Source of the DNA: Clostridia bacterium
GTDB taxonomy: Bacteria; Bacillota; Clostridia; Oscillospirales; Acutalibacteraceae
Length of the DNA: 37,877 nucleotides
Assembly: GCA_024404755.1 (NCBI GenBank)
Contig: JAKSPN010000004.1
Span: 1 to 37,877, forward strand
Reading direction: 5' to 3'
The notes under the pieces were generated by a model, which saw only the letters and a program-made list of their open reading frames with translations, was not told where the DNA came from and made no database searches. The position numbers and the translations under genes were made by a program. Below, piece after piece: positions 6,807 to 33,591 of the stretch (positions within the stretch are counted from its first letter, which is position 1; every line of letters begins with the position of its first letter).

Positions 6807-9437
6807 TCAGCGCGGGAGTTCCACGATGACGCTCGCTCCTTTCTCGATTTTGTCGTTTTCGATAAACAGACTCCACGTTTGCAGCGTTTCGTCAAATTCG
6901 CAGGGTTGCTCAACGCCGTTCAAGAAGAAGCGGGCTTTGTCCCCCGCCGTGCGGCGCATTTTAACTGTAAAGGGGTTGCCCCTTACAAGCACTTTTCCCT
7001 CTACCCCGTCGAACGGGCCTTTGGCGGCGGGCTGGATACGCACGCCGTCGTACTCGGGGCAAACGCCCAGCACGTCGCGCACAAACAGCTTCATCGTAAC
7101 GTTAGAGCTGCCCGTCTGCCAATCGTTCATGGAATCGCCGTCGATATTGAGCGCCGCATTATAGCCGTAAGAGTTGGGCATTACGAACGGCGACAGCGAA
7201 GTAAATTCGTGTGTAATGGGCAGCGCCTTTACAAGCTCTTTCCAACCGTCTTCCGCGAAGCCCATACGGAACAGCGCCATAATCGCGAACATCGAGGCGT
7301 GAACGTACACCGCACCGTTCTCGGCGGTGCCCGCCGGGAGTTTGTTGATGCGTCCGAAGCCCACCGCATCCTCCGCAAACGGATGGGAGAAGGTGAGAAT
7401 GCCGTATTTGGTGTCGAGCGACATCAAATCGTCGCGCAACTGCCACCGCAGCGACGGGTCGCGTTTCAGCAGACCGGTCATCACCCAGAAAGCGAGCGAC
7501 GTACTGCTCACGCGGTCTTTCCCGTCGGGGTCACAGAAACTGCCGACGAGGTAACCGCGGTGGTCGCCCCAACCGTGAATCACGCGCTTCGTACCTTTGT
7601 CGTTTTCAATCACGCCGTAGGTGCGCAAGCCCTTTTCCATACGGTCGGCCACGGTTTTATAGCGTTCGATGCGCTCGGCGTAACGGGATTTGTCCAAACG
7701 ACCGAGCAACTCAATCATTTCGTTGAGGTTTTGCCACACCTGCGCGCACGCCATCACCGAAACGCCGGTGCCGTACTCCACGTTCGGGTCTTTGGAAACG
7801 CCGAGACCGTCGAGCGCGTCGTTCCAGTCGCCGAACAGCACGCGGACACAGCCGGTTTCTTCGTCGATTTGGCGCAGGAGGTATTCGAGAATGCGCAGCA
7901 TATGTTCGAGCACCGTGTCGTGCTCCTCGCTCTTGCGAACGAGCCCTTCGCCGGTCAGCCGCGCGCCGGGATTTTTGTTTAAGATGTCGTAGTACCCGCA
8001 ATCCTCGTCCAAAATGGAGAAGTCGCCGGTAAATTTGAGGTAGGTCACAATCGTCGAGATGACCCACACACCTTGGTCGATAAACGGGCGCACGTCCATA
8101 CGCGGCACGTCTCCCTCATATGCGGGAAGCGAGTACTGCCGCGGGCAACGGCCGGACGGATCGGTGAAACTAATCGCCTCGATAATCTTTTTGCGGCTGT
8201 CTTCCGGTCGCCAGATGAGATACGCTTCCAGCGCCTGCATCACGTCGCGGATACCGATAAGCGAGCCCGCACCGGTTTGGGCATACCCTTTGAGCATGGC
8301 GCAGAACTCGATTTGTTTCTTCAAATGCTCGAAAAAGTGGTTAAGTTTGCCGTCGGTCAAATTGCCGGACTGCAAATTCGAGAAATTCATCTCGAAATCA
8401 TCGTGTTTCGAGGACTCCAACTCGTCAATCGCGGCGAGATAGGCATCCGTCTCGTCGGCGGACACTTTGTGGCTCAGCAACTCGTCCAGCGGTTTCGTAT
8501 CGGTACAGCGGATGGTGTAGGTCAGTTGCGCATCCCACCGCGCACGGCCGCCGGCATCCAGCTCCATCGAGAGCGAATCGGCGAACACGCCCACGTCGTT
8601 GAACACGGTCACGTTTTTGGCGTTGTCCCAATGGCCGTTAAAGTTCTTGAACGCGCTGTGCAAGCTTCCGTGAACACCGCCGACAACCGAGAAGCGCGAG
8701 GTGTTTTCCTCGGCGGAGAGAAGCGTGCCGTTTTCGATTTGGAACGCGCGAGACCACGCGCCGAAGTTGCTCACCTGCTCGGTGCGGCTGATCATCACGC
8801 GGATTTGCGCGGTAAACGGAGCCAATCCCCCGTCGGCCGGCTTATCACCCACGCGGATTTCTTTGAACCAGCGGGTCTCGCCGCATTCACCCTGCGTATA
8901 TTCGAGGTGCGGGCAGAAATACGAGGCAAGCCAGCACTCTTTTTTCTCGTTGCCCAAGTTTTCCGCCGTGGCGGTAAACAGCATTTTGCGGTCTTTGGTG
9001 GTAAACACGCGAACGGAGAAGCGCATCTCTTCCGCTTCCGCCACGTAGGTCACACAAGACGAGTTAAACACGGTATAGCGGCGCACGTCGTCGTCCTGAA
9101 GCGGCGCGGCGAACACCGGGAAGGTCTTGTAGCCGTCCCCCGTTTTGATTCCCGCAAACCACGCGGCTTTGGGCTCTAATCCCTCGGCGCTGTACAGAAG
9201 CGGGCTGAACGCACCGTCGTTGCAATGCATATAACCCGACGTGTACGCCCAAAAGTTGAAGCCGTCGTTGCCGTAGACGTAACGGTTTTCGCCGTCGTTA
9301 CGCGGAAGCGACAAAATATCGCGTTTGGAGATGTAATAACATCCCGACGGAATTTTTTGGTCGTCATATTCTCCACGCATCGCGCCCGCATAGGCGGCGG
9401 ACAACGTGTCCAATCGTTTGAAAAGTTCCGACTGCAT
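6807..9437 (-). CDS. GH94-type glycoside phosphorylase (cellobiose phosphorylase-like)
   Basis: An 876-residue protein without a signal peptide; the ATG follows AAGGAGG. The N-terminal part (to about residue 300) looks like the beta-sandwich of GH94 enzymes, with the motifs YVYGNDGFNFWAYTSG and FSVRVFTTKDRKMLF. The catalytic (alpha/alpha)6 barrel carries FIDQGVWVISTI...YLKFTGD and the GDWND motif near residue 536, whose Asp is the general acid in GH94. The family phosphorolyses beta-glucosidic disaccharides or oligosaccharides to a sugar 1-phosphate inside the cell. The exact linkage cannot be told from sequence alone; it is less similar to classical cellobiose phosphorylases than a true orthologue would be. 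It leads a two-gene unit with the TIM-barrel gene and follows the sugar-transport operon. Confidence 0.75.
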   Translation of the reverse strand: MQSELFKRLDTLSAAYAGAMRGEYDDQKIPSGCYYISKRDILSLPRNDGENRYVYGNDGFNFWAYTSGYMHCNDGAFSPLLYSAEGLEPKAAWFAGIKTGDGYKTFPVFAAPLQDDDVRRYTVFNSSCVTYVAEAEEMRFSVRVFTTKDRKMLFTATAENLGNEKKECWLASYFCPHLEYTQGECGETRWFKEIRVGDKPADGGLAPFTAQIRVMISRTEQVSNFGAWSRAFQIENGTLLSAEENTSRFSVVGGVHGSLHSAFKNFNGHWDNAKNVTVFNDVGVFADSLSMELDAGGRARWDAQLTYTIRCTDTKPLDELLSHKVSADETDAYLAAIDELESSKHDDFEMNFSNLQSGNLTDGKLNHFFEHLKKQIEFCAMLKGYAQTGAGSLIGIRDVMQALEAYLIWRPEDSRKKIIEAISFTDPSGRCPRQYSLPAYEGDVPRMDVRPFIDQGVWVISTIVTYLKFTGDFSILDEDCGYYDILNKNPGARLTGEGLVRKSEEHDTVLEHMLRILEYLLRQIDEETGCVRVLFGDWNDALDGLGVSKDPNVEYGTGVSVMACAQVWQNLNEMIELLGRLDKSRYAERIERYKTVADRMEKGLRTYGVIENDKGTKRVIHGWGDHRGYLVGSFCDPDGKDRVSSTSLAFWVMTGLLKRDPSLRWQLRDDLMSLDTKYGILTFSHPFAEDAVGFGRINKLPAGTAENGAVYVHASMFAIMALFRMGFAEDGWKELVKALPITHEFTSLSPFVMPNSYGYNAALNIDGDSMNDWQTGSSNVTMKLFVRDVLGVCPEYDGVRIQPAAKGPFDGVEGKVLVRGNPFTVKMRRTAGDKARFFLNGVEQPCEFDETLQTWSLFIENDKIEKGASVIVELPR

Positions 9438-9639: not shown

Positions 9640-10596
9640 TTAACCGACGATACCCGTGCGCTCGATGGACTGGATAAAGAATTTCTGCGAGAACAGATAG
9701 AGAACGAGCAGCGGCACGATGCACATCAGCGTCGTGGTCGCGGTCACGATGTCTTTGTACGCTTCTTTATCCTGCGCGGCGATAACGCTGACCGTACCGG
9801 CGGTTTGTTTTTGGTCAAACGCATACGCGATACTGTTGAGCATTTTCGCCAGCGTGTTCGGGCTGTAGAACAGGTTCGTATAGGTGTTGTCGCCCCATTG
9901 CCACACGAAGGAGAACAGGAAAACCGTCACCATAATCGGCACCGCCGATTGCAGCATAATGAGGAAGAACGTTTTGAACGGGCCGGCGCCGTCGATAGCG
10001 GCGGCTTCGTCTACCTCTTTCGGGATACCGCGGAAGAACTGACGGACAAGGTAAATATACAGTCCGCAGCGGGCGGCACACGCCGTGAGGCCGAGGCAGA
10101 TGAACGGCCAAAGGCCACCGTTCATATTGAGCATTTTGAAGTTAAGGAACTGCGGAATCAGCACGACCTGGGTCGGAACCACCATGCAGATAACGACCAG
10201 CACGAAGAGCAGGTCGCGTCCTTTGAAGTGGAAGCGAGCGAAGCCGTAGCCGACAACCGTGCAAGAGAAGGTCTGGGTCAGACCCGCAACGAGGCAAAGC
10301 AGGAACGAACGTCCGAGGTTGCCCCAGAAACGGGCGATGACGATAGCATCCGAGTAGTTGGAAATCGTGAAGACTTTCGGGATAACCTTAACGGTCTGGT
10401 CGTAAACGTCTTTCACGCTCATAAACGAAACGGAGACTTTCATAAGCAACGGTTGCAGAATGAGGAAGCATGCGCCGATGACAAACGCCAAGCGGAAGAT
10501 GAAACCCGCCACTTTGGTAATCATTTGTCTGCGTTTATAGGAACTACCCAGAAAAGCGCGCTTCTGGGCGACCTGTACCGTTTCGTTATTACTCAT
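9640..10596 (-). CDS. Carbohydrate ABC transporter permease, MalG type (pair 2)
   Basis: A 318-residue inner-membrane protein with six predicted helices. The cytoplasmic EAA loop reads EVDEAAAIDGAGPFKTFF, the signature that contacts the ATPase in CUT1 sugar importers. An N-terminal tail of about 30 residues is hydrophilic. The ATG at 10596 overlaps the end of the previous permease gene by 8 nt (ATGAGTAA) and has GAGGGTG 7 nt upstream. It forms a heterodimer partner with the 10589-11530 product by family rule. The substrate is likely an oligosaccharide; no ATPase gene is present in the operon. Confidence 0.9.
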   Translation of the reverse strand: MSNNETVQVAQKRAFLGSSYKRRQMITKVAGFIFRLAFVIGACFLILQPLLMKVSVSFMSVKDVYDQTVKVIPKVFTISNYSDAIVIARFWGNLGRSFLLCLVAGLTQTFSCTVVGYGFARFHFKGRDLLFVLVVICMVVPTQVVLIPQFLNFKMLNMNGGLWPFICLGLTACAARCGLYIYLVRQFFRGIPKEVDEAAAIDGAGPFKTFFLIMLQSAVPIMVTVFLFSFVWQWGDNTYTNLFYSPNTLAKMLNSIAYAFDQKQTAGTVSVIAAQDKEAYKDIVTATTTLMCIVPLLVLYLFSQKFFIQSIERTGIVG

Positions 10597-11530
10597 GATA
10601 AAACACCCTCTTTGCCATCAACGCGAACGCAGCGCCAAGCACGATGCCGATGATGATGAAATACACCCACACCGAGGCGATTGCCGTTCCGAAGTCTTTA
10701 AGACCGGCCATCTGGTTTTTCACGTGGTTGATAACCGGGTTGGAAATGTTCGTAAACGAGTCGATAATCGTGTAGATTACGTTCAGCAGCAGATACGGGC
10801 CGCACATGGGGAACGTGATTTTCCAGAAGTTCTCCCACGCGGTGGCGCCCTCGATGCTGGAGGACTCGTAGATGGACGGGGAAATCGTGTTCAGACCACT
10901 CATAAAGATGATAATCTGCAAACCGGATTTGATGATAACGTCATACAGTTTGCCACTCAAGTCGGTCATGAACTTGATGATGCTTTCCGGCATACTGCCT
11001 TCGAGCAGTTTGTTGACCACTTCCGACGAGGAGAAGCCCGCGCCCATGGCGTTGGCCGCATCCGTCGCGCTACGCGCCATCAACTGGTCCATAAGACTGT
11101 TGGAGTCCATCGACGCGAGAACGCCGGTAGAAAGCACAACAGGCAGGAAGAAGATGGCACGCGCCGCCGCACGCCCTTTGAATTCGCGGCTCAAAATCAG
11201 AGCCGAGAAGAAGCTGAACGGGACGACGATGATGGTATCCAGCGCCATATTTTCGATAGCGGTCATCAAACGTTTGATGAAGCTCGGGTCAACGAACAAA
11301 ATGTGGTTGTAGTTCGCCCACCCTTTCGGTTCCAGCGTGTAGCCGGTCGCACCGACGATTTTGATGTCGTTGAAACTGAAAACCAGCGACTGCACCAGCG
11401 GAATGGCGTAGAACACCAAGAAGCCGATGAGGAACGGCGCAATAAACACCCAACCGGTGTTATTGCGGCGGGTCATCAAGCGGCCGCCGCTGCGGCGCGG
11501 GGATTTCACAACATTTTCTTTTTTGCTCAT
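10589..11530 (-). CDS. Carbohydrate ABC transporter permease, MalF type (pair 2)
   Basis: A 313-residue membrane protein with about six helices and a poly-basic N-terminus. The EAA loop is present as SSIEGATAWENFWKITFP near residue 225. Relative to typical UgpA/MalF permeases it has an extended extracytoplasmic segment of about 60 residues (around residues 140-200, including MDSNSLMDQLMARSA) between helices. The ATG at 11530 overlaps the DUF5696 stop by 4 nt and has AGGAGGGG upstream, inside the previous gene. It is likely to pair with the MalG-type product that follows. Confidence 0.9.
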   Translation of the reverse strand: MSKKENVVKSPRRSGGRLMTRRNNTGWVFIAPFLIGFLVFYAIPLVQSLVFSFNDIKIVGATGYTLEPKGWANYNHILFVDPSFIKRLMTAIENMALDTIIVVPFSFFSALILSREFKGRAAARAIFFLPVVLSTGVLASMDSNSLMDQLMARSATDAANAMGAGFSSSEVVNKLLEGSMPESIIKFMTDLSGKLYDVIIKSGLQIIIFMSGLNTISPSIYESSSIEGATAWENFWKITFPMCGPYLLLNVIYTIIDSFTNISNPVINHVKNQMAGLKDFGTAIASVWVYFIIIGIVLGAAFALMAKRVFYHE

Positions 11531-14151
11531 TGTGCATCCCCTCCTTTCGCCGTGAATTTCAGATAACTGCCGGCTTCGACGTTACCGTACGGGCTGGCAA
11601 ACGCCTTGTCGCCGTAGTTGACGACCACGCCGTTGCCGTTCTCGTAGGTGACCGCCACCGCGTTGTCCGAAAGACGGTCATAACCGACCATTTTCTCACC
11701 ATACACGTCGGACAGCGCCTCGGTCACCGTGTCGGTCACCGTTTGGATGCTGTCTTTGATGGTGTCGAAGGTCACCGCGTAATACTGGTCGTATTTCGTG
11801 TATTTCACGTCGCTGTTGTCCGCGGCGATGGCGGTGAAGTCCGGCACGCTGCCGGTTTCGATGCATTGCAGCGTGTAGTAAGCGGTGTCCGCCTCGTTGT
11901 TCCACACGTCCGCGGTGTAGGTCACCGCGCCGGAGAGGATCATTTGGGTGAACGGCACGCTGTACGCGATAATCGGATGCGCGTTGCTGGTCATCGGGAT
12001 TTGGGACGCCACGTCGAGGGACGCCAGCGCGTATTCGTTGGCGCCGCGGGACAAGAGTCCGTACTCACCCGCCGCTTCGGCGAGGTTTTTCGTCATCTCG
12101 GCTTTGGCGGCGTTGCGGGTCACGAAGTTGTCGCGGGAATAGTCGCCGGACAAATCGGAAGCCGCATAGGTAAGACCGACCGTCACCGCCCCCACCTGGG
12201 CTTTGTAACTGTCAAGGAAGGCATCCAGCGTCTTTTTGTTCTTCGACGGCGAGAGGAGGTAGCCGTAGAAGCCGTCCTCGTCCGCCATGAAGTTCGAGAC
12301 GTTGAAGTCCGCCTTGAACGCCGCTTCGCGGAGAATGCCGCGCGCTGCGCCAGAGGTGGTGGTGAAACCGTCAAACATTCTGTTGCGGTAGATATACTGG
12401 GTATCCGCCAGCGGATAGAACACGCCGCCCGCCGCTTTCACGGCTTCGGCGAGGTCTTTCATCTCCGCCACGGAGCCGACCTTTTTCTCGGTCTTGACTT
12501 TGCTTTGGATAACGGCTTTCACGCCGCCCTTCACCCACGCATCGTACTGGACGATGAGTTGGTTGTTCGGGAACATCGTCGCGAGTTCTTCGGTCAGGTC
12601 TTTCGCCTCGGCGAAGGTGGTCAGCGGTTTGATGTATTCGGTCGGCACACCGACGACGGTTTTGATATCGTCAATCGCGCCGAGGAATTCCACCGACACC
12701 GGCATTTTGTCCGCCGCTTCGGATTCCGTCAATTTGCCTTCCGCTTCCAAACGGGCTTTGTAACTCGTCGCGATGTCCACCCACGAAGTGGCGGTCTTCG
12801 GCAAGAAGGTAAAGTCCATTTGAATCGGGTCAAGCACCGCTTCGTTGGCATAGGTCGTGACGGTGTTGGTGTCTTCCGCGCTCATACGCACCTGCTCGGT
12901 GTCCACAAGCTGGAAGTAGAACCCGCCGTAACCCGGCGCCGTCGCGCTGGTGCAGGGGTTAACCGTCATATACGCGGTAGCGTCCGCACCGGTCGCGGTC
13001 GCATACATCGAGCCGTCTTTGTTCGACAGACCGTACATCGGGAAATAGAGGTTCTTTTTCTCGGAAGTATTGGTCTTTTGGCTCTGAGCATAATCGCGAC
13101 CGTAGAATTTCTCTTGGTACACGGAGGTGCCGGAAGCGGCGGTCTCGCCGAGTTTCACGATAGCACCGGAGCCGTCCGGCAGGAGCATTTCGCTCGTTTT
13201 CATACCGTCAAGCGTGTTCCAGTGCGGCAGCACCGTGATACCTTGGATAATCACGCCGCCGGTGGTTTTGATATCCTCCGTCGGAACGTCCACCACAAGG
13301 CGGCCGTCTTTCAGCGTGTACACCATCGACACGGTGTAATAGTTGGTCACGCCCTCTTGGTCCACGTAACCAACGGCTTCGAGTTGCGCCTCGCGGTCTT
13401 CCATCGTAAAGCCGGCACCCTCCAAGTATTTGAGGATGTTTTTCTTTTCGATGGTGGACGGCGAAGTTTTCAGCACCCGCAACTGACCGAGTTCTTCGGC
13501 TTTCAGGTATTTCTCCGTAATCGCCGCCTTGGTCTGCGGGTCGTCGACGGTTTTCAAGTCCACGAGAGAGTAGTATTTTTTGAATTTGTACTGGTCAGAG
13601 GTACTTTTCAGCGTTCCGAGGATTTCCTCGAACTTCTCCACCGTCATCGCCTGCGGGTAAAGCGGCACGTTCTGCTTTTTACCGAACAGGTATTGGATTT
13701 TGAAGCCCTTATCCTGCTTCTCCACCTGGAACTGACCGTACTGCACGCTCTCTTCGAAGTTGTTTTCCTCGGTCACCGTTTCGGTGGTCGTACCGATGGT
13801 GGTAACGAGCAACTGGGAAGAGTAGTTGCCGAGGCGGTTTTGGTTAAACGAGGTACGGTCTTGCGGGTTGGAGTACCACACCGAGCCGTCTTCCGTTTTG
13901 ACCGCCACTTCGGTGGTCTTTTCGTTGAAATACAACGTCAGCCCACCGTCTTTTGCCATTTCGGTCATATTTTTGATGCCGAAATCTTTTTGGTCCTGTA
14001 CGTATTTTTGATCGTTGGTCGGCCACTTGTTCACGTCGTTCAAAGACATGGACGCAAACAGCGAAGCCGTCGAGGTGCATCCGGTCAAGCCGAGGGCAAG
14101 ACACAAGACCGCAACCAACGCCAAAACGCGTTTCATAGTTTGTCTTTTCAT
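11527..14151 (-). CDS. DUF5696-like surface lipoprotein
   Basis: I favour the ATG at 14151 (874 residues), 10 nt after AAGGG; a GTG at 14160 overlapping the YIP1 stop is the alternative. The N-terminus is a lipoprotein signal with box LTGC (Cys25). The first half is beta-rich (segments such as TLYFNEKTTEVAVKTEDGSVWYS). The second half has barrel-like strand blocks, for example NNQLIVQYDAWVKGG, VFYPLADTQYIYRN and VTVGLTYAASDLSG, recalling glycosidase folds, though I see no assured catalytic pair. From memory it fits the DUF5696 family, which is found beside YIP1 proteins and CUT1 permeases in Firmicutes. The role is unknown; it may be a surface component of the uptake system or a glycan-processing protein. 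Confidence 0.7.
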   Translation of the reverse strand: MKRQTMKRVLALVAVLCLALGLTGCTSTASLFASMSLNDVNKWPTNDQKYVQDQKDFGIKNMTEMAKDGGLTLYFNEKTTEVAVKTEDGSVWYSNPQDRTSFNQNRLGNYSSQLLVTTIGTTTETVTEENNFEESVQYGQFQVEKQDKGFKIQYLFGKKQNVPLYPQAMTVEKFEEILGTLKSTSDQYKFKKYYSLVDLKTVDDPQTKAAITEKYLKAEELGQLRVLKTSPSTIEKKNILKYLEGAGFTMEDREAQLEAVGYVDQEGVTNYYTVSMVYTLKDGRLVVDVPTEDIKTTGGVIIQGITVLPHWNTLDGMKTSEMLLPDGSGAIVKLGETAASGTSVYQEKFYGRDYAQSQKTNTSEKKNLYFPMYGLSNKDGSMYATATGADATAYMTVNPCTSATAPGYGGFYFQLVDTEQVRMSAEDTNTVTTYANEAVLDPIQMDFTFLPKTATSWVDIATSYKARLEAEGKLTESEAADKMPVSVEFLGAIDDIKTVVGVPTEYIKPLTTFAEAKDLTEELATMFPNNQLIVQYDAWVKGGVKAVIQSKVKTEKKVGSVAEMKDLAEAVKAAGGVFYPLADTQYIYRNRMFDGFTTTSGAARGILREAAFKADFNVSNFMADEDGFYGYLLSPSKNKKTLDAFLDSYKAQVGAVTVGLTYAASDLSGDYSRDNFVTRNAAKAEMTKNLAEAAGEYGLLSRGANEYALASLDVASQIPMTSNAHPIIAYSVPFTQMILSGAVTYTADVWNNEADTAYYTLQCIETGSVPDFTAIAADNSDVKYTKYDQYYAVTFDTIKDSIQTVTDTVTEALSDVYGEKMVGYDRLSDNAVAVTYENGNGVVVNYGDKAFASPYGNVEAGSYLKFTAKGGDAQ

Positions 14152-14156
14152 CTTGC

Positions 14157-14798
14157 TCACACCCTTAACTGAATTTCCGTAACGACACCGGCGATGTAAC
14201 TGTACAGCGAGTCAAACATACTCGCGAACAGCACCATCAGGAACATAATGAACACCATACCGAACAAGGTCAGTACCACGGTGAGTACCGCTTTGCTCAA
14301 AGTGAACTGGTGAACCGTCAGGTTGCCGACGAACGCATACATCAGGAAGAATACCGTTCCGACACCGCTGATGATGCCGAGGAAGCCGGCTTCTTCGGCG
14401 GTAAACCAGTAACTGGCCGGAATGTACAGGAAGTTGGTGACGATGCAGGGCACCGTCGCGTAACAGAGCGACATATAAATGTCGCGGAAGCGGCCTTCGC
14501 CATCCACCAGCGCGGTGACCGACCAGTTGGCGATACACCACAGGAAGAACGGGAACAGCACGTTGGCGATTTCGCGCACCACGCTGTACGTCCGTTCGTT
14601 CACCTCGTTGAAGATGAAGCCGGTGTACACCTGCTTGCAAATCACCGAAAGAACGAAGAGGCACATCAAAATGATGCAGGCCCCGAGGTCTCCCTGCCCT
14701 TCAAAGCGCATTTCGTACACGCCCTGAATCGGGTGGGAGATGATGTTGCCGGAATATTTAAGACCGTTCAGGGTCTTATTGTTTTTCCAGTTTTTCAT
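14157..14798 (-). CDS. YIP1-family integral membrane protein
   Basis: A 213-residue protein with five strongly hydrophobic segments (starting near residues 40, 72, 108, 135 and 165) and a short cytoplasmic N-terminus carrying the segment IISHPIQGVYEMRFEGQGD, the usual entry of YIP1-family proteins in Firmicutes sugar clusters. The ATG overlaps the previous stop by 1 nt (TGATG), with GGAGGCGGAGGG upstream. Its function is not established; its fixed place between the NHL/TPR protein and the DUF5696 lipoprotein suggests a membrane partner of one of them. Confidence 0.75.
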   Translation of the reverse strand: MKNWKNNKTLNGLKYSGNIISHPIQGVYEMRFEGQGDLGACIILMCLFVLSVICKQVYTGFIFNEVNERTYSVVREIANVLFPFFLWCIANWSVTALVDGEGRFRDIYMSLCYATVPCIVTNFLYIPASYWFTAEEAGFLGIISGVGTVFFLMYAFVGNLTVHQFTLSKAVLTVVLTLFGMVFIMFLMVLFASMFDSLYSYIAGVVTEIQLRV

Positions 14799-16466: not shown

Positions 16467-17435
16467 TTACTCTTTGATACCGGAGGATGCCATGGTGTCG
16501 AGAACCTGGCTTTGGGTCGCGATGAACAGGATAATCGGCACGCTCATCAGCAGAACGCTGATAGCGCCGGCCACGCCCGCGCGGGCAAGACCGCCTTGCG
16601 AAATCTGTTGCAATGCGAACGCGAGGGGTTTGATTTCCTCGGTACGGATGAGAACGCCGCCCGTGTTGTTCCACAGGTCGGTTGCCGAGAAGATAATCAG
16701 CGTCAACCAAGCGGGTTTAACGTTGGGCATAACGATGGTGAAGAAGATTTTCAGCTCGCCGGCACCGTCGATACGGGCGGCTTCGAGCATGGCGTTGTGG
16801 ATGCTGGACATGAACTGTTTCATAAGGAACAAGCCCATGGAAGCGCCGATGGCCGGGAAGACCAGCGCCCAGTAGGTATCCACGAGGTGCAAACGGGACA
16901 TGATGATGAAGTTCGGGATGGAGGTGACGTTCGGAGTGAACAACAACGCCACAACGACCAAGCTGAAGAACGCATTCTGTCCTTTGAAGTGGATTTTTTC
17001 CAGCGAGTACGCCGCCATCGAGGCGAAAATCACGTGAAGTCCCGTGCCGACGATCGTTATAAATAATGTATTAAAGAAATAACGGGAGAACGGCACGTAG
17101 GAGTTACTCATCGCAATAGACAAGTTTTGGAAGTTGTCGAACGTCGGGTTGTTCACGAAGAAACGCGGCGGATAGAGGAACAACTCGTCGTACGGCTTGA
17201 AGGCGTTACAGATAACGTAAATCATCGGCACCGCCATAATGCAGCAGAACAAAATCAGGAAAATAATAGCCAAGATGTCGCCCTGCAGGGAACGCATGGA
17301 TTTAACGGCAAAAACGTGCCGCAGGAACCGGCGAATCTTCAAACCCACCTTTTTGAGACCGCCGCCGACCGCTTTGAAGAAGCGGCCAATCGCGTTGAGG
17401 AACGGAATATTTACTTTTTTCTTATTCTTACTCAT
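16467..17435 (-). CDS. Carbohydrate ABC transporter permease, MalG type (pair 1)
   Basis: A 322-residue membrane protein with a long basic N-terminus (about 55 residues) and six helices. The EAA loop reads MLEAARIDGAGELKIFF, typical of CUT1 importers. The ATG at 17435 overlaps the previous permease stop by 4 nt and has GAGGACCGG upstream. It is distinct in sequence from the second MalG-type permease in this operon, so the two pairs are not a recent duplication. Confidence 0.9.
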   Translation of the reverse strand: MSKNKKKVNIPFLNAIGRFFKAVGGGLKKVGLKIRRFLRHVFAVKSMRSLQGDILAIIFLILFCCIMAVPMIYVICNAFKPYDELFLYPPRFFVNNPTFDNFQNLSIAMSNSYVPFSRYFFNTLFITIVGTGLHVIFASMAAYSLEKIHFKGQNAFFSLVVVALLFTPNVTSIPNFIIMSRLHLVDTYWALVFPAIGASMGLFLMKQFMSSIHNAMLEAARIDGAGELKIFFTIVMPNVKPAWLTLIIFSATDLWNNTGGVLIRTEEIKPLAFALQQISQGGLARAGVAGAISVLLMSVPIILFIATQSQVLDTMASSGIKE

Positions 17436-18367
17436 GTTCCGGTCCTCGCAATCAGTTTGTTAATGAGCCAACGCGACACGAGCATCATCAGGAACAGCAC
17501 GGTAGCCATTGCCGAAGCATAACCCAAGTCGAAACGTTGATAACCATAGTCAACCATCAAGTTGACGATGGTGGTGACCGCGTCCTCCGTAGACGGATAA
17601 CCCGCAAGGGCAATCGTCTGCTGGTGGATAGAGAACGCGCTCGTGATGCTCATCGTAGCACCGAACAACAACTGCGGTTTCATCATCGGCAGGGTGACGT
17701 ACCAAAGTTCCTGCCAGCGGTTTTTGAGGCCGTCGATAGCGGCGGCTTCATAGAACTGGGTATCGATGGTACGGAAACCGGCAACGAACGAAAGGAAGCC
17801 GGCGCCCATGGAACCCCACAGCACGCAGATGATGATAACGGTGGAAATGTAGTTCGGGTCGGTCAGCCACTCAATCGGCTTTTCGATAATGCCGAATTCC
17901 GTCAGCGCGCTGTTGATGTAGCCGTACGCGTCACCGGAGAACAGGACGCTGAACACCACGTAGATGGAGCCGGCAATCGTCGGCGAGTAGCAGATAAGGA
18001 CGAAGACCATTCGGATTTTCGAAGAGACTTCGTTGATCATCCAAGCAACCAAGTAAGAGAGGATGTATCCGCCCGGGCCGCAGATGATGGCGAATTTCAG
18101 GGTGTTCTGCAATGCAATCGGGAACACGCTGTCGCGGGTCATCAGCCGGACGTAGTTATCAAACCAAATCCATTTGGTCGGCTGGAAGATGTTGTAGTAG
18201 GTGAAACCGTAAATGATGGAGATGACGACAGGTAAGACGGTGAATACGAGGAAGAACGTCGCATACGGGATTAAAAAGCCGTACGCGACGCGATCCCGTT
18301 TCCAGGTCTGGCGCCAGTCACTCATCAACGGCGACTTTCCATTTTTCATAGCTTTTTCATCCCTCAT
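17432..18367 (-). CDS. Carbohydrate ABC transporter permease, MalF type (pair 1)
   Basis: A 311-residue membrane protein with six helices and the EAA loop FYEAAAIDGLKNRWQELW. The ATG at 18367 overlaps the fusion binding-protein stop (ATGA). An ATG six codons in, at 18349, has the better placed GAGGGATGA site and gives 305 residues. It is part of the first permease pair, directly after the fusion binding protein. Confidence 0.9.
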   Translation of the reverse strand: MRDEKAMKNGKSPLMSDWRQTWKRDRVAYGFLIPYATFFLVFTVLPVVISIIYGFTYYNIFQPTKWIWFDNYVRLMTRDSVFPIALQNTLKFAIICGPGGYILSYLVAWMINEVSSKIRMVFVLICYSPTIAGSIYVVFSVLFSGDAYGYINSALTEFGIIEKPIEWLTDPNYISTVIIICVLWGSMGAGFLSFVAGFRTIDTQFYEAAAIDGLKNRWQELWYVTLPMMKPQLLFGATMSITSAFSIHQQTIALAGYPSTEDAVTTIVNLMVDYGYQRFDLGYASAMATVLFLMMLVSRWLINKLIARTGT

Positions 18368-21300
18368 TCCGTCGGCAAACCGAATTCGGTTCGTTTATCG
18401 TAGATTTCATCCGTAATGATCTGCGCGTATTTGAGAATGGCCTCGCGGGCATCCTCTTTGTTCTCTTTAATGCAGACCGCACGGAAGGCGTTGTTGATGT
18501 GACGCGGCGTGTAGTAACTACCCGGGGTTTCCGGAATGGTCGCCGCATACTGAGATTCCTCGTTCAGCACTTCCAACTCGGTTTTGGACCACGCCAGCGA
18601 GTTGAACGCCTCTTTGTTGGCGGTGGCGTAACGCGCCGCCGTACCGAGCAAGGATTCGAGGTTCTGTGCGTAAGTGGACTGGGTCGGAGTGGAGGTCCAC
18701 CACTTCATGAAGTCCCAACCCGCCATTTTGTTTTCGGCGGCATCCATCAGGATAACGGCCGTGCCGCCGCCTTTGGTGGTTTTGTTCATCGTACCGTCGT
18801 CCTGCATCGTGCCGGGCACGAGAGTCATCTGCCACAAACCTTTCAGTTCGGGGGCGGAGACGGACAGGTTGTTATAGAACGGGAAGTCGGTGAGCAAAAT
18901 CGGGGACTCACCCGTACGGAAACGGGAGAGCATATCGAAGTTGGTCGGCAGACCGTAACTCGTGTAGAAGTTGGTCCAGTACTCGAACGCTTCCACCGCG
19001 TTTTCGCTGTTCATCGCGGAAGCGGTGCGGTCGTCGGTATAGAACGCGCCGCCATGCTGATACAGGAAGATGGCGTAGGTGTTGATACCGTACTGTTCCA
19101 CGTCGGCACCGGTCTTATCGCCGGTTTCCATCAGCACCGACATATTGTTGCTCTGCAAGGTCGGCAGAATGTCGATGAGATCATCCCACGTCCACGGATT
19201 TTCCATCGTGGGCGGTTCGATTTCCAGTTCTTTCAGCACGTCGGTGCGATAGAACATCATCGTGTACAGGAACTGGTCGGGCAAAGCGTACAAACCGTCG
19301 CCGTCACCGTCGTTAAACGTGAACGGGACAATCGCCTGCTCGTAGTCGGTGAAGCGTTCCAGCACTTCCTGCAACTCGTCGGCGGGAACGACCTCACGCA
19401 AGTTGGCGGAAGCGCCGCGCATCGCGTATTCCACCGGCAATTTTGCGGTGGCGTTGAGCAACACGTCCGGACCGTTGCCGGCGGCGACAGACGGCATCAG
19501 CGCGTCCACCGGGACCACCTGCAAATCGACACCGATTTGGCTGCCGGAGGTTTCCTTGGAGTTCGGGGTGTAGTTGGAACGAATCAGTTCGTTGATAATC
19601 GAGGCCTGGTCACGACCGAGCGTCGTCCAAACGGTCAAGGTAGTGGAGGACTCGCCGCCGGTACCGGCAAGACTGTTGTAATCCTCCACGAAAGAGGCAA
19701 CGAACAGCTGCGCTTGGTACCAGATTTTCTGGAAGAAGGTACCGTCCGCTTTCGGCGTATCGTCCGCGGGGCTCGCAATCGAGAGATAGTCGATGTCCAG
19801 CGGGCGGGCCTGGGCGGCGGTCATCACTTCACTCAAAGAAGCGATGTTATCTTTATAGTATTTAAGTTGAGAAGCAATGGTATTGGGTTCTTCGTAAAAT
19901 TCATTCAACTGAATGGAGGTTTTGGTGATGGCGGAAAGAGAACTACCGGAAGAACCGGAAATCGCTTTGATGGACTCGGCGATTTCGTCCAGTTCGCCCG
20001 CCTGCTCTTTCATGCCTTCCAGAACGTCCGGAATGAGCTTTTCAAGTTCGTAGTCACGGTCGGTATCCGGCGTGGAGCTCATAACCATGATGAGTTCGCG
20101 GTAGATATCGTTGAGTTTAGCCACGCTGTTTTCGAGGCGTTCCAACGTCGGGCCGAGGTCACCGAGCGTCACCGCCAGGGACAGTTCGTATTTTTTACCC
20201 GCTTCGAAGTAGAACTTGCAGGCCTCTTCCCCCGCCGACACGGTGTAGATAATCCAACCGTTGTTGTGGGTGAAGTGGATGTCCGCCGCTTCCGCAAACG
20301 GGATTTCACCGTTGATACGCAAAGTGCGGGCGGAGTACAAGTCGCTCGAATAAATCTGGCGGCAGCGCATCCGCAGTTCGTACAGACCGGTCTCTTCCGG
20401 CGTGAACGACCACACAACCTCTTGACCGGCGGTAGACCAGTTGTTACCGCCGATGTAGTTCAGGCGGATTTTACTGCCCTCACGCGGGGCGGTCATCGGC
20501 GAGCTGCGGTCTTCCTGCGGGGTGAGGGTCGCGTCGTTTTTGTAGTCGCAATCCTCGCCTTGAATGACCGGCAGCGTTTTCGCCGCGTTGTTGCCGTTGT
20601 CCGGATGCGCTTTCGCATACTCCGCATACGAAATCATCGGCTGCGGGCAAACGAGCGTAATCGCGTGGAGTTTCACGCTTTCACGCAAGCTGACGAAGGT
20701 CAGCTCTTTGGCACCGTCGAAGTTGAACAGCAGTCCCTCCGAATAGTAGCCGGCGGAATCTTTGAGCGTTTTGGTGAGATAACCGCGCTCTTCAAACGGA
20801 ACGGTCACCTGCGCCGGTTTGATGTCGTTGTTGTTGGCATCCTGCTCGATTTTGCCGTCGTTGCGCCACATACGACTAAGAGTCAAGTCGCGGGCTTCTT
20901 CGTAAGGCAATTTCCCGTCGAGCAACAGCGCGCACTCCACGTCGCGGGTGCGGGTGTCGTCCACGTCATATTCCAGTTTGATTTGATAAAGACCGGCGGG
21001 AATCGACGGAAGCGAAATCTTCGCATACCCCTCTTCCGCAATCGACACGTCGCCGTTCGCTTCTTTCGTGCATTTTCCCGTGGCGGAGTTAAGCGACAAC
21101 GTCACGTCTTTTTTGGCAGAGTTGCCGAGACTCATCGCCTCGTTCTCATTTTCGGCTCCCTCGGACACCAAAAAATCTTTGTAGGTCTGCGCCTGCATCA
21201 GCGCAATAGCGGACGGATCCACCTCTCCCGATTTTTCAGCCGAGACTGCTTCGTTCGGCGGGCTGTTCTGCCCCACCGTCTCCACAGCACTTGCACTCGG

Positions 21301-21414
21301 AGCCGCCGCTAACGTCAGCGTTTCCTCGTTGGCCGCAAGTGCCGGGCAAGCGACGGTCAAAAGCATTGACACCGCCAGCAGCACACAAGCCATTTTCTTA
21401 GTCAGGCTTCGCAA
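18364..21414 (-). CDS. Large extracellular solute-binding protein fused to two CBM-like domains
   Basis: The best start is TTG at 21414: GGGAGG lies 7 nt upstream, and the protein then opens MRSLTKKMACVLLAVSML, a clean signal peptide (cleavage near ALA-AN, or a weak lipobox TVAC). A GTG 13 codons earlier lacks a site. The 1016-residue product has a low-complexity spacer, then two beta-sandwich domains (about 80-250 and 275-415), each closing with YKI- or YEL-type strands and sharing the element DLYxxRxLRINGEIPFAEA or similar. A helical stretch follows (about 415-555), then a CUT1 solute-binding domain (about 570-1016, with TLTVWTTLGRD, GPDVLL and WTWDDLIDILPTLQ). It probably delivers oligosaccharide to permease pair 1; the extra domains may hold polymer. 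Confidence 0.8.
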   Translation of the reverse strand: MRSLTKKMACVLLAVSMLLTVACPALAANEETLTLAAAPSASAVETVGQNSPPNEAVSAEKSGEVDPSAIALMQAQTYKDFLVSEGAENENEAMSLGNSAKKDVTLSLNSATGKCTKEANGDVSIAEEGYAKISLPSIPAGLYQIKLEYDVDDTRTRDVECALLLDGKLPYEEARDLTLSRMWRNDGKIEQDANNNDIKPAQVTVPFEERGYLTKTLKDSAGYYSEGLLFNFDGAKELTFVSLRESVKLHAITLVCPQPMISYAEYAKAHPDNGNNAAKTLPVIQGEDCDYKNDATLTPQEDRSSPMTAPREGSKIRLNYIGGNNWSTAGQEVVWSFTPEETGLYELRMRCRQIYSSDLYSARTLRINGEIPFAEAADIHFTHNNGWIIYTVSAGEEACKFYFEAGKKYELSLAVTLGDLGPTLERLENSVAKLNDIYRELIMVMSSTPDTDRDYELEKLIPDVLEGMKEQAGELDEIAESIKAISGSSGSSLSAITKTSIQLNEFYEEPNTIASQLKYYKDNIASLSEVMTAAQARPLDIDYLSIASPADDTPKADGTFFQKIWYQAQLFVASFVEDYNSLAGTGGESSTTLTVWTTLGRDQASIINELIRSNYTPNSKETSGSQIGVDLQVVPVDALMPSVAAGNGPDVLLNATAKLPVEYAMRGASANLREVVPADELQEVLERFTDYEQAIVPFTFNDGDGDGLYALPDQFLYTMMFYRTDVLKELEIEPPTMENPWTWDDLIDILPTLQSNNMSVLMETGDKTGADVEQYGINTYAIFLYQHGGAFYTDDRTASAMNSENAVEAFEYWTNFYTSYGLPTNFDMLSRFRTGESPILLTDFPFYNNLSVSAPELKGLWQMTLVPGTMQDDGTMNKTTKGGGTAVILMDAAENKMAGWDFMKWWTSTPTQSTYAQNLESLLGTAARYATANKEAFNSLAWSKTELEVLNEESQYAATIPETPGSYYTPRHINNAFRAVCIKENKEDAREAILKYAQIITDEIYDKRTEFGLPTE

Positions 21415-21456
21415 ACTGATTTCCTCCCATCTGTGGTTTTGCAAAACAAACACCGA

Positions 21457-29054: not shown

Positions 29055-29102
29055 ACTATTCCCGCGCGTGAGAAGTAAGTGAAAACGAAAGGAGGCGGCT
29101 CT

Positions 29103-30101
29103 ATGTACGTCTGGAACGGAGCAGAACTGTGGAACGCGGCGGTACTCCCGAAAAAAGCGGGAGAATCGCTGAAAATCGCCACGTTCACCCAACTGAAAGT
29201 CCTTGTGTATATCGCAACCTGCGGACAAAACGGCGTGGATGCCGCCGCCGTTGCCGCCGCCCTCGGCGGCCGTATCACCGAAGCGGACTGCGCGGATGCG
29301 CTGGCGTTTTGGACAGCGGAAGGGGTGCTTGTGTCCACCGACGAAAAAGCCCCCGCACCGCAACCGAAAACGCTGCCCGTCTCCCCCGCGCCCGCGGTAA
29401 CCCCCGCCGTGCCGAAACCGTTGCCGACGGCGAAAACGCTGACCGAAGCGGACACGGCGGCGGCGAAAAAAGCCAAGAAAACCCCGAGCCACAAAGAATT
29501 CGCAGAACTGCTCCACACGGTGGAAGCCCGCTTCGGCAAAACGCTTTCCCGCTCGGACCAAGACCGCCTGCTCGACTTGTGTGAGGAGACGACACTCCCC
29601 ACCGAAGTGCTGTTGATGATTGTGGCGTACACCGTGAAAAACGACAAAAAGCGGGTCAGTTACGTACAAACCGTCGCCCATTCGTGGGAGGAAAAAGGCA
29701 TCAACACCATCGATGCGGCGGACAAATATCTCTGCCATATCGAACGGTGCGAAAAGGCGTGGAACAAACTCGCCGACTGGCTGACGTTGGATATCCAAAA
29801 GCCCACTGTCTCCCAAAAAGAACTCGCGGACAAGTGGATTTTCGAGTTTAAGCAAAAACAGCCGCTGATTACGCTCGCCTACGACAAGTGCCTTGACAAA
29901 ACCGGCAAATTCCAAGCGGCGTATATGGACCGGCTTCTGTGCGCATGGCACGAAGACGGGCTCTCCACGCCCGAAGCCGTCGCCGCGCCGAAGAAAGCCG
30001 CCGCGAAAAAGCCCGCGAAAAAGGGCGAGGGCGGTTTTGACGTGGAAAAATACGAAAAAATGGTCGCGGACAGAACGCCGCGCTTCCGAAAGAAAGGATA
30101 A
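29103..30101 (+). CDS. dnaD: DnaD-domain primosome protein
   Basis: The ATG at 29103 (332 residues) has AAAGGAGG 7 nt upstream. The N-terminal part (about 1-85) looks like a winged helix with the segment TFTQLKVLVYIATCGQ. A Pro/Ala-rich linker follows. The DnaD-like helical domain (about 135-215) has LLHTVEARFGKTLSRSDQDRL, LPTEVLLMIVAYTVKN and YVQTVAHSWEEKGINT, the last two being family hallmarks. A second related segment follows (about 225-290). DnaD helps load the replicative helicase in Firmicutes. The C-terminus is Lys-rich. It is followed directly by the helicase-loader gene. Confidence 0.88.
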   Translation: MYVWNGAELWNAAVLPKKAGESLKIATFTQLKVLVYIATCGQNGVDAAAVAAALGGRITEADCADALAFWTAEGVLVSTDEKAPAPQPKTLPVSPAPAVTPAVPKPLPTAKTLTEADTAAAKKAKKTPSHKEFAELLHTVEARFGKTLSRSDQDRLLDLCEETTLPTEVLLMIVAYTVKNDKKRVSYVQTVAHSWEEKGINTIDAADKYLCHIERCEKAWNKLADWLTLDIQKPTVSQKELADKWIFEFKQKQPLITLAYDKCLDKTGKFQAAYMDRLLCAWHEDGLSTPEAVAAPKKAAAKKPAKKGEGGFDVEKYEKMVADRTPRFRKKG

Positions 30102-30104
30102 ACT

Positions 30105-31076
30105 ATGGGATACAATCGTGACGTTTGCCTGCGCGCCGCCGAGGAGTTGTCGCGCCGGCGGCAAAAAGCCGCCGCCGAAGCTATCGCCCGCCGCAAACGC
30201 GTTTTGGAAAAACAACCCGCCGCCGCCGATTGCGAACGGCGTATGGCGGCTTCCGCCGCCAAAATTGCCCAGGTGGTGCTCTCTCACGGTGACGTAGAGG
30301 CCGCCCTTGCCGCGGCGCAAAAAGAAAATCAACAAGCCCAAGAGGAGTTGGCGGCGTACATTGCCGCCGCCGGCGAGCAAGGGCGCGATTTCAGCCCGCT
30401 GTACGTCTGCCCTCTGTGTGAGGATACCGGCTACAAGGGCACGAAAATCTGCCAATGCCAAACGGCACTTTTGGCGAAATACGCCGGCGAGGCACTGTCC
30501 AAATCCTCCGGAATGCAGCTCGCTTCGTTCGAGGATATCGACCTGTCGTATTACGACGACGATGCCCGCAACCGTATGGCGAACAATTTTGCGTTTTGCA
30601 AGGCCTACGGCGAGCAGTTTGACACCCGCGCCGACAGTTTGTTGCTGTTCGGTCCCACCGGCACCGGCAAAACCCACGCGGCGCTCGCAATTGCCCGCCT
30701 TGCGACCGAAAAGGGATTTTCGGTGATTTACGGGCCGGCACAAACGCTCTTTCGCAAGTTGGAGCGCGAACATTTCCGCGGCGAAGAGGGCGAAACCGAA
30801 GAAGCCCTGCTCACCTGCGACCTGCTCGTCCTCGACGACGTGGGCACCGAGATGACTACCGCGTTCACCAACGCCTGTCTGTACGACGTGCTGAACGGGC
30901 GAATGCTCGCGGGTCTTCCCACCATCATCAGCACCAACCTTACCCCGTCCGATTGGGGCGCGCGCTACGGCGAAGCGGTGGCTTCCCGCGTGCTCGGCAC
31001 GTTTGAGCCGCTTTCCTTCGCGGCGAACGACGTGCGCCAAGCCAAGTTGGAACGCCGTCTTTCCGGCGAGGGTTGA
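30105..31076 (+). CDS. dnaI: Helicase loader, DnaI/DnaC-type AAA+ ATPase
   Basis: A 323-residue protein, ATG start with AAAGGAT upstream, 3 nt after dnaD. The N-terminus is a long Ala/Lys/Arg-rich helix, followed by a small cysteine cluster, CPLCEDTGYKGTKICQCQ (about residues 102-119), likely a zinc site. The AAA+ core has Walker A GPTGTGKT near residue 183, Walker B LLVLDDVG near 241, and a sensor segment STNLTPSDW. The family delivers the replicative helicase to DNA. IstB is related, but there is no transposase here, and the dnaD neighbour favours the helicase loader. Confidence 0.92.
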   Translation: MGYNRDVCLRAAEELSRRRQKAAAEAIARRKRVLEKQPAAADCERRMAASAAKIAQVVLSHGDVEAALAAAQKENQQAQEELAAYIAAAGEQGRDFSPLYVCPLCEDTGYKGTKICQCQTALLAKYAGEALSKSSGMQLASFEDIDLSYYDDDARNRMANNFAFCKAYGEQFDTRADSLLLFGPTGTGKTHAALAIARLATEKGFSVIYGPAQTLFRKLEREHFRGEEGETEEALLTCDLLVLDDVGTEMTTAFTNACLYDVLNGRMLAGLPTIISTNLTPSDWGARYGEAVASRVLGTFEPLSFAANDVRQAKLERRLSGEG

Positions 31077-31114
31077 TTTTTGATTTTTTCGCTTCGTAAA
31101 AAGGAGGCCATCGT

Positions 31115-31573
31115 ATGCAATTTTCCGAACGCCGTTGTTTCGGCTGTATGAACGTGTATACCGCCGAGTCGGACGCGTGCCCCGTTTGCGGCTATCCCGC
31201 CGACGGCTCGAATCCGGCGGAGTATCTTCCGGCAGGCACGCTGCTTGCCGAGCGCTATACCGTCGGGCGGGTGTTGTCTTTTTCCGGCACCACCGCCTGC
31301 TATATCGCCTATGACCAAACCGGCGACTGCCCCGTGTATCTGCGGGAATTTATGCCGGAGCAATTCTGCCGCCGCACCGAGTCCGGCGCTCTGCAACCGA
31401 AAGAGTCGGCGGCGGAGGAGTTTGCCCGTCTGTGCGAGCAGTTCGACACCCAAGGGCGCACACTCGCGAAACTGCGGGATTTGTCCATTATGCTCCCCGT
31501 TTACGATTTGTTTAAGCAAAACGGCACGTCGTATACCGTGTCGGAATATTTAGAGCCGCATACATTGTCCTAA
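31115..31573 (+). CDS. N-terminal part of a PASTA pseudokinase, ends at an in-frame TAA
   Basis: A 152-residue frame; the ATG is preceded by AAAAAGGAGG. It starts with a zinc-ribbon-like CFGC...CPVC pair (about residues 10-30). Then comes the N-lobe of a Ser/Thr kinase fold: ERYTVGRVLSFSGTTACYIAYD replaces the glycine loop, and VYLREFMPE sits where active relatives have VAIKEYFP, so the ATP-binding Lys is Arg. It ends at SEYLEPHTLS followed by TAA (31571-31573). The C-lobe continues in the same frame immediately after. Possible explanations are a nonsense mutation (GAA to TAA would fit the family pattern), read-through, or a sequencing error. It is probably co-transcribed with dnaD and dnaI. 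Confidence 0.75.
   Translation: MQFSERRCFGCMNVYTAESDACPVCGYPADGSNPAEYLPAGTLLAERYTVGRVLSFSGTTACYIAYDQTGDCPVYLREFMPEQFCRRTESGALQPKESAAEEFARLCEQFDTQGRTLAKLRDLSIMLPVYDLFKQNGTSYTVSEYLEPHTLS
31571..31573 (+). other. In-frame TAA splitting the pseudokinase gene
   Basis: The TAA lies exactly in frame between two halves of one kinase fold. The next codon is TTG. No ribosome binding site precedes it. Selenocysteine and pyrrolysine decoding are ruled out because they use TGA and TAG. Confidence 0.85.
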
Positions 31574-32821
31574 TTGCTCGCGCAAAAGGGCGGGCGGCTT
31601 TCGTGGAACGACACCCGCAAACTGTTTTTGCCGTTTTTGTCGTCCCTGCTCTCCTGCCACACGGCGGGTCTGTACCACTTCGCCATTTGCCCGCAAAACC
31701 TGCTGCTCGACGAAAGCGGGCGGTTGCGCTTAAACGGGTTTGACCTGCCGGAAGTGCGGCGCGAAACCGACCTCATCGAGCCGCAACTCGCGGACGGCTA
31801 CGCCGCCCCCGAACAGTACACGCTCGGTAAATCCGTAGGGGCCGCGGCGGACGTGTATGCCGTGGCCGCCACGCTGTTCCGCGTACTTACCGGCAACCCG
31901 CCTCCGAGTGGCGCGCGCCGCGAAGCGGAAGGCAACGATTTGTTTATGCCCACCGAAGTGGCGAACGCGTTGCCCGAACACGTTGCGGAAACGCTCGCCG
32001 ATGCGCTGCAACCCGATGCAAAACTGCGCATCCCCACGCTGTCCGAACTGCGCGACCGTCTGTCCACCGGTATGGTGGTGTCGGCGCTGGCACAGGAAGC
32101 GGAAGCGATGAACGCCCCGCGCGAGGAGAAAATGCCCAAAAACTCTGCCGGCAAAAAATACGCGATTTTGCTTTCCTGCCTGCTCGCGGTCATCCTGATT
32201 GTCGCGGGCGGCATCCTCTACTTTAAGTTGAGCCACCCCGAAAAAGACCCGAACGGCACAAGCCAAACCGCCACGCTTCCCACCCTGACCGAAACCGAAA
32301 AGCCCACCTCGACCGAGGCGGCGGGTCTCGTGTCCTTTGCGCCGGATTTGTCCGACGGCAAGCAGGATTACTACGCTCTGCCGATTGAGGGCGGCGTACG
32401 GGTGAAAGACACCTACCCCGTCACCGTGGTCGGCTATCAGTACAGCGATTCCGTGCCGGCGGGCTACATCGTGGCGCAAAACCCGGTTGCGGGCGCGCCC
32501 GTGCCGGACAGCACGACCATTTCGGTCTATTTAAGCGCCGGCAAAGCGCGTACCGCCGTGCCGGACGTGACCGGCTGGAAAGCGGAACACGCGAAAATCT
32601 ATCTGGAAGCGCTCGGCTTCCGTGTGGAAACCGCCGAGGGCGCGGATACGTCGGTAGACGTAGGTTGTGTGTTCGGTACGTGGCCGGAAGCGGGCACCGA
32701 GCCCCTCAACGGCAACAAAGTGACGCTGCGCGTCAACAACACCCCGAAAACCACCGCCGCCGAAGCGGAAGAACTCTCCGAAGCGGACGAGCCGCTTGAC
32801 GATACGGGCGAGGAGGAGTAA
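31574..32821 (+). CDS. C-terminal part of the PASTA pseudokinase: C-lobe, membrane helix, PASTA-like repeats
   Basis: Continues the frame for 415 codons from a TTG directly after the TAA; an efficient independent start is not evident. The C-lobe keeps the fold markers GYAAPEQY and ADVYAVAATLFRVLTGNPPP. The catalytic loop reads HFAICPQNLLL instead of HRDxxPxN, and the DFG site reads NGFDL, so the catalytic and metal-binding Asp residues are missing. A transmembrane helix (about residues 195-217 of this part) is followed by a Thr-rich spacer and two PASTA-like extracellular repeats, the second being AVPDVTGWKAEHAKIYLEAL. PASTA domains bind peptidoglycan fragments or lipid II. The tail is acidic. 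With the upstream part this makes a 568-codon gene if read through. Confidence 0.75.
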   Translation: MLAQKGGRLSWNDTRKLFLPFLSSLLSCHTAGLYHFAICPQNLLLDESGRLRLNGFDLPEVRRETDLIEPQLADGYAAPEQYTLGKSVGAAADVYAVAATLFRVLTGNPPPSGARREAEGNDLFMPTEVANALPEHVAETLADALQPDAKLRIPTLSELRDRLSTGMVVSALAQEAEAMNAPREEKMPKNSAGKKYAILLSCLLAVILIVAGGILYFKLSHPEKDPNGTSQTATLPTLTETEKPTSTEAAGLVSFAPDLSDGKQDYYALPIEGGVRVKDTYPVTVVGYQYSDSVPAGYIVAQNPVAGAPVPDSTTISVYLSAGKARTAVPDVTGWKAEHAKIYLEALGFRVETAEGADTSVDVGCVFGTWPEAGTEPLNGNKVTLRVNNTPKTTAAEAEELSEADEPLDDTGEEE

Positions 32822-32823
32822 CT

Positions 32824-33591
32824 ATGCAAAAAACCACGTTGTCTGAGTTCGGCACGAAACTGTTTTTGCGTGCCCTCATCGCCGCGGCGCTGTGTATGAT
32901 CGTGTATCTGTCGTTCGGCTTTATTTTCACCGCCGTCGGCACGAAGCAAGCGGGCTACACCGTCTATCACCAGGAAGAAGACGGCACGCTCACCAATATG
33001 GGCGACTATTACTTTGACGAAATAAGCGCCCTCGAAGAAGAGGCCTCCGCCGCCGACGAAACCGGCACAACCGCCGCCGAATCGGTCTATTATCGGCAAG
33101 CCATCCGCACCGAAATGTCGCCGTTTTTGAAAGTGATTTCCTTTATCCTCTCGGAAATCTGTATGCTCGGGATGTATATCTCGATGTTGTACGTTTCCGC
33201 ATGGGAACAGGGCCGCAAAAACGCCCAAAACGACGAGGGTGACGGCTTCGACAAATGGTTTGGCCTGCGCGCCGGTGCGTTTGCAACGCTCCCGCTTTGC
33301 ATCGCGTGGGTCGCGCTTCTTATGAGCAAACTCGGCTGGTTTAACCCCGAATTTGCCGGCACGTTTAAGCTCTTGATGGCGCCGTGGTTCCCGATTGTCA
33401 CCGCGATGATGCCCGCCGCCGCGACCGCGTCGATGGCGTGGTGGGTGCCGTTTGCGATGTTGCCGCTGATAGCGCTGAAACCCGCCACCACCCACGTCGC
33501 CTACGTTCTCGGCGCGAACGATATCGTGTTGCGGGACAAAATCCTCTATAAGGGTAAGAAAAAGAAAAAGAAAAAATCCCGTCGGGCATAA
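32824..33591 (+). CDS. Multi-pass membrane protein of unknown function
   Basis: A 255-residue protein; the ATG lies 2 nt after the pseudokinase stop, so co-translation is likely. There is one helix near residues 15-38, then an acidic extracytoplasmic segment (about 40-95), then helices near 100-125, 150-170, 180-200 and 203-220. The C-terminus is strongly basic (KGKKKKKKKSRRA) and probably cytoplasmic. I do not recognise a family. Its tight coupling to the PASTA pseudokinase and its position before a cell-wall amidase suggest a role at the cell envelope. Confidence 0.65.
   Translation: MQKTTLSEFGTKLFLRALIAAALCMIVYLSFGFIFTAVGTKQAGYTVYHQEEDGTLTNMGDYYFDEISALEEEASAADETGTTAAESVYYRQAIRTEMSPFLKVISFILSEICMLGMYISMLYVSAWEQGRKNAQNDEGDGFDKWFGLRAGAFATLPLCIAWVALLMSKLGWFNPEFAGTFKLLMAPWFPIVTAMMPAAATASMAWWVPFAMLPLIALKPATTHVAYVLGANDIVLRDKILYKGKKKKKKKSRRA

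Follow-up and report, generated by a model that had tools for sequence, protein, structure and literature searches.

The window, i.e., the whole stretch of 37,877 nucleotides that was analysed, contains on its forward strand an open frame (31115-32821) that is broken once in the assembled contig. The break is a TAA (31571-31573) in the frame set by the ATG at 31115; past it, the frame is open again as far as a TAA at 32819-32821, giving a read-through translation of 568 codons. The source assembly comprises 1.30 Mb in 95 contigs and is thus fragmented, with a completeness of 98%. The interrupted frame, its two upstream neighbours and the features assigned to it are as follows (residues are numbered in the read-through translation):

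29079-30101, forward strand: neighbouring gene for a DnaD-domain helicase-loading protein (Pfam PF07261, NCBIfam TIGR01446)
30105-31076, forward strand: neighbouring gene for a DnaC/DnaI-like helicase loader ATPase (profile matches)
31101-31107, forward strand: Shine-Dalgarno sequence AAGGAGG, a 7-base match 8 nt 5' of the pseudokinase ATG
31115-31573, forward strand: 5' open part of 152 codons plus TAA, covering the zinc ribbon and the greater part of the N-lobe of the kinase
31115-31192, forward strand: zinc ribbon with Cys 8, 11, 22 and 25 (orthologue alignment, confident model)
31250-32065, forward strand: pseudokinase domain, residues 46-317, read through (Pfam Pkinase, 59.5 bits; AlphaFold2; Foldseek)
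31343-31345, forward strand: Arg77 at the position of the VAIK lysine
31571-31573, forward strand: in-frame TAA, codon 153, in helix alphaD just past the hinge (sequence, model, orthologue comparison)
31574-32821, forward strand: 3' open part of 415 codons, with the C-lobe, membrane helix and PASTA domains and no decay
31682-31684, forward strand: Ala190 at the position of the HRD aspartate
31736-31744, forward strand: GFD (208-210) at the position of DFG (sequence, alignment)
31805-31819, forward strand: APEQY motif (231-235), kept
32147-32233, forward strand: membrane helix, residues 345-373 (hydrophobic stretch in the translation, single helix in the AlphaFold2 model)
32330-32542, forward strand: PASTA domain 1, approximate bounds (Pfam, model)
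32555-32737, forward strand: PASTA domain 2, residues 481-541 (Pfam PASTA)

The Pfam kinase score climbs from 44.7 bits for the 3' part alone to 59.5 bits when both parts are joined, and the frame therefore encodes one kinase fold that is cut in two, as a sequence-only reading of this DNA had proposed. Chance can be excluded as the origin of the frame, because almost every relative possesses a full-length orthologue free of stops. In the AlphaFold2 model of the read-through protein (mean pLDDT 86.7, pTM 0.60), codon 153 lies within helix 151-157 (alphaD), just past the hinge strand. Mechanical ORF calling lists 31115-31573 and 31574-32821 as two ORFs, which would fit two separate genes, or else an old pseudogene in decay. 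However, the full-length orthologues consist of one frame and the junction falls inside the kinase fold, while neither a spacer nor a ribosome site, a second lesion or decay of codon usage is found, and this explanation is accordingly a very improbable one.

The read-through protein consists, in this order, of a Cys4 zinc ribbon, the protein kinase fold, a single membrane helix and a pair of PASTA domains (Pfam, AlphaFold2), in agreement with the N-terminus, helix and repeats suggested by the sequence-only reading. All four cysteines of the ribbon (8, 11, 22 and 25) are invariant among 29 aligned orthologues. A Pfam match of the N-terminus to Nop10p stayed below the cut-off, and the segment is taken as a generic zinc ribbon. 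The kinase fold scores above the cut-off for Pfam Pkinase, the pLDDT of the kinase region is mostly >90, and Foldseek matches this domain to PpkA, Stk1 and PknB (PpkA and PknB at probability 1.00). Pfam recognizes two PASTA stretches, with 72.2 bits for the whole protein. By analogy with PrkC, the PASTA domains would be located across the membrane from the zinc ribbon and the pseudokinase.

The active site is degenerate, as the sequence-only reading had described it: Arg77 replaces the ATP-binding lysine, Ala190 the HRD aspartate and GFD (208-210) the DFG motif, while APEQY (231-235) is kept, with Glu233 and Gln234 invariant in the aligned orthologues. By this loss of the VAIK lysine, HRD aspartate and DFG, the gene would, judged from its sequence, encode a pseudokinase. 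Among 66 aligned clade members, the window gene included, the HRD aspartate position is occupied by glycine (48/66) or alanine (18/66), but never by aspartate (0/66), and the aspartate is equally absent from 14 further members of the same family and of two other families of the order. The VAIK lysine position is arginine in 50 of the 66 and lysine in four. Orthologues with intact catalytic residues and a clear break at the site of the TAA would have spoken against the initial interpretation; instead, the aspartate is missing from all aligned clade members, and none of the listed orthologues has such a break. The simplest reading of these alignments is that catalysis was probably lost once, anciently, and long before the stop arose. 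Atypical catalysis, as in SelO or SidJ, may be conceivable.

The closest known systems include the PASTA Ser/Thr kinases PrkC, PknB and Stk1 (NF033483), which have the kinase fold, the single membrane helix and the PASTA domains in common with the window protein, the kinase and PASTA sequences being homologous. The window protein differs from them in lacking the catalytic residues that this family possesses and in carrying an N-terminal zinc ribbon. It scores 137.3 bits with the NF033483 profile, below the curated cut-off of 450, but it does have the single helix (residues 345-373) and the two PASTA stretches of the family, in a presumed orientation. A second group, zinc-ribbon kinases of Lachnospiraceae (L097-L099, L101, L102, L107, L110), has the same Cys4 ribbon ahead of a kinase domain of the same subfamily, including the shared motifs KEY/REF.P and EQY. 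Unlike the clade, these kinases keep VAIK, HRD and DFG, and the tree places them in a group of their own. The best solved match of the kinase domain, in sequence (E 2e-42) as well as in fold, is PpkA, a kinase associated with type VI secretion (PDB 5hnv); the solved part, its N-terminal kinase domain, has neither zinc ribbon nor PASTA and belongs to a different cellular context.

Degraded catalytic motifs are also shared with the bacterial pseudokinase families covered in a review, i.e., ActPs1-3, GLW, CP1, DYD, DLHK and EssB/YukC (PMC12599244), of which EssB/YukC is likewise a membrane pseudokinase of Firmicutes. In this review, the term PASTA occurs in the reference list only and zinc does not occur. 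DYD pseudokinases retain HRD and/or DFG and have the VAIK lysine changed to arginine (PMC12599244), whereas the window clade lacks the HRD aspartate; the window protein itself has the arginine, but neither the HRD aspartate nor DFG. In Clostridioides difficile, CD2148 is a second Hanks-type protein beside PrkC that lacks the catalytic aspartate, is possibly a pseudokinase and influences phosphorylation dependent on PrkC (PMC9674922). According to the same study, CD2148 has no PASTA domains, unlike the window protein. The pair of PrkC and CD2148 serves as a functional parallel only.

The pseudokinase clade is widespread in the host's family. At a threshold of E 1e-30, 287 of 299 sampled genomes have a match, as do 235 of the 246 that are of high quality (95%); these counts are slightly generous, since a few matches (E about 1e-31 to 1e-49) may represent PrkC only. 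Beyond this family, the clade occurs in at least two others of the same order, one of them large; Clostridium sporosphaeroides and Faecalispora jeddahensis are among its named carriers. In the tree, it is set apart from the Lachnospiraceae zinc-ribbon kinases and other active kinases with a support of 99/98. It appears to be a variant that combines two known kinds, the PASTA receptor and the bacterial pseudokinase. No description of a zinc-ribbon PASTA pseudokinase clade was found in the literature searched, whose scope did not extend to the primary kinome surveys cited in the pseudokinase review, so that its novelty is provisional. Two sequences, L106 and L108, represent a second zinc-ribbon pseudokinase lineage that looks independent (VFVREF, YGAISPE, no DFG) and forms a long branch placed among active kinases. 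Another sequence (L256, from genome G058), which belongs to another family of the order, shows more diverged motifs, with HRLISPE and with APEMF replacing APEQY.

Most of the genus shares the order dnaD-dnaC-pseudokinase-amidase-radA, and in two nearby genera the pseudokinase gene is likewise preceded by dnaD-dnaC; elsewhere the neighbours differ. The adjacency to helicase-loading genes that had been pointed out initially is thus real, but this linkage says little on function because it is confined to the genus and a few closely related ones. Since the neighbourhood is not conserved further out, we reject a functional tie to helicase loading. Directly 3' of the pseudokinase gene, 32824-33591 (forward strand) encodes a probable membrane protein of 255 residues without a Pfam family; a homologue with 49% identity occupies the same position in G004, and genes of similar size are found in G001 and G002. 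The genome encodes one other Hanks kinase, an intact PrkC, whose gene follows that of a PP2C-like phosphatase and precedes an rsgA-like gene (both neighbours identified by eye).

The stop is derived in the window genome, because the orthologue is present in 235/246 high-quality genomes and those listed all lack an internal stop: apart from the window gene, none was found among the ~150 matches listed. Recurrent interruption was considered for 13 rows flagged for stops, and all 13 proved to be natural C-terminal gene ends. At codon 153 the aligned orthologues vary in their residue (K, E, D, Y and others), with Lys and Glu commonest. After the stop, none of 27 strongly conserved kinase columns is changed, against a family mean of about 8%; the corresponding numbers are 2/23 before the stop and 2/11 in the PASTA region. 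GC3 holds at 0.76-0.78, with no decay of codon usage. The nearest orthologue is ~45% identical at the protein level, too distant for useful synonymous rates. In the absence of decay downstream of the TAA, the change is either recent or not real. Being derived against intact orthologues, the stop would mark the assembled gene as nonsense-inactivated.

A genome-wide scan, in which coding potential was compared across six frames over 1.20 Mb (92% of the genome), returned ten in-frame stops with coding sequence on either side and no ATG close behind. In nine cases a GTG or TTG start lies no more than 33 nt past the stop, mostly accompanied by a Shine-Dalgarno-like sequence, and these are read as ordinary gene boundaries. 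The tenth is the window stop itself, and no second stop of its kind was found in the 1.20 Mb; the scan recovered 47% of artificial stops, so that roughly one more could be hidden. None of the 29 ABC-transporter matches in the genome contains an internal stop, and TAA is the stop codon of 15 of the 25 window genes. Reassignment of TAA as a sense codon can be excluded, and programmed read-through is improbable. A recoded gene would be expected to share its stop with orthologues or to be accompanied by more in-frame stops in the genome; neither was observed among the listed orthologues or in the scan. The stop could also be bypassed by re-initiation at the TTG that directly follows it (31574), such that read-through or a restart yields a full-length or two-piece pseudokinase, as might be suggested by the undiminished constraint under which the sequence past the stop has been over its history. 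However, since TAA is an ordinary stop here and no ribosome site was found before the in-frame starts in the 180 nt past it, both routes are disfavoured, and a re-initiated product would be devoid of the zinc ribbon and N-lobe. Bypass in either form is therefore improbable. From the three explanations originally offered (recent nonsense change, read-through or assembly error), read-through is thus the weak one and the other two stand.

There is, in our view, about an even chance that a conserved PASTA pseudokinase gene has recently acquired a real nonsense codon in this lineage, producing a null allele and placing the gene at the beginning of its loss from a reduced genome. This would be consistent with a single derived stop in an otherwise intact frame without decay, with TAA as a normal stop and with an intact PrkC. 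It would also be in line with the small genome (1.3 Mb): among high-quality genomes of the family, absence of the gene is commoner at ≤1.4 Mb (6/34 versus 5/212, p about 0.001), in a tally made by hand from rounded values that ignores shared ancestry. However, a tolerated null is less expected where nearly all relatives keep the gene, and a consensus error accounts for these observations nearly as well. An error in the assembly or its consensus, or a consensus that picked up a minority variant, is a serious candidate in which we place somewhat less than even confidence; the real gene would then have a sense codon and be a normal member of the clade. In its favour, a single codon is the sole lesion, the sequence on either side of it is as conserved as in intact orthologues, the assembly is in 95 contigs, and the gene is intact in nearly all relatives; moreover, Lys and Glu have codons one substitution away from TAA. 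On the other hand, no other such stop was recovered in 92% of the genome (at a recall of about 47%), i.e., the assembly is not visibly error-rich, and the gene is among those lost by small genomes of the host's family.

If the nonsense codon is real, translation in the window genome would end after 152 residues, inside helix alphaD. The truncated product would be a soluble fragment of zinc ribbon and N-lobe without C-lobe, membrane anchor or PASTA domains, unable to complete the kinase domain or to reach the cell wall. The intact protein of the relatives would be a membrane-anchored pseudo-receptor, in which the membrane helix separates the two PASTA domains from the zinc ribbon and the pseudokinase. 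The PASTA domains might bind peptidoglycan or lipid II, and the dead kinase domain might act by protein contact, the simplest of which would be to modulate or scaffold PrkC, the only other Hanks kinase of the genome.

The stop codon itself is ordinary. What may give the locus its interest is a kinase whose catalytic aspartate was apparently lost a single time, at the root of a large gut lineage, although the protein itself has been retained with its zinc ribbon and PASTA domains. Its retention in nearly every genome of the family implies a non-catalytic job in cell-wall signalling. We tentatively suggest, while regarding it as rather less than probable, that these proteins form a so far undescribed clade of pseudo-receptors with zinc ribbon and PASTA domains, carried by nearly all members of one gut Clostridia family and found in at least two more families of the order. 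They would sense the wall non-catalytically and tune PrkC, and the window would show the loss of one of them. The clade offers a testable case of a bacterial pseudo-receptor alongside PrkC, and, should the stop prove genuine, the window genome would be a natural knockout.

Several other genes of the window, all away from this locus, are also worth recording. A protein of 340 residues with a C-terminal type I dockerin is encoded at 606-1625 (reverse strand), on the same contig as a GH94-like gene (6810-9437). The 1029-residue frame at 18367-21453 (reverse strand) has a solute-binding-protein domain that begins only at about residue 640; its N-terminal 600 residues have no Pfam match at E 1e-6. 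An 877-residue DUF5696 protein (11530-14160, reverse strand) lies among two permease genes (9643-10596 and 16470-17435), and this region is probably a sugar-uptake locus with an uncharacterised large protein.
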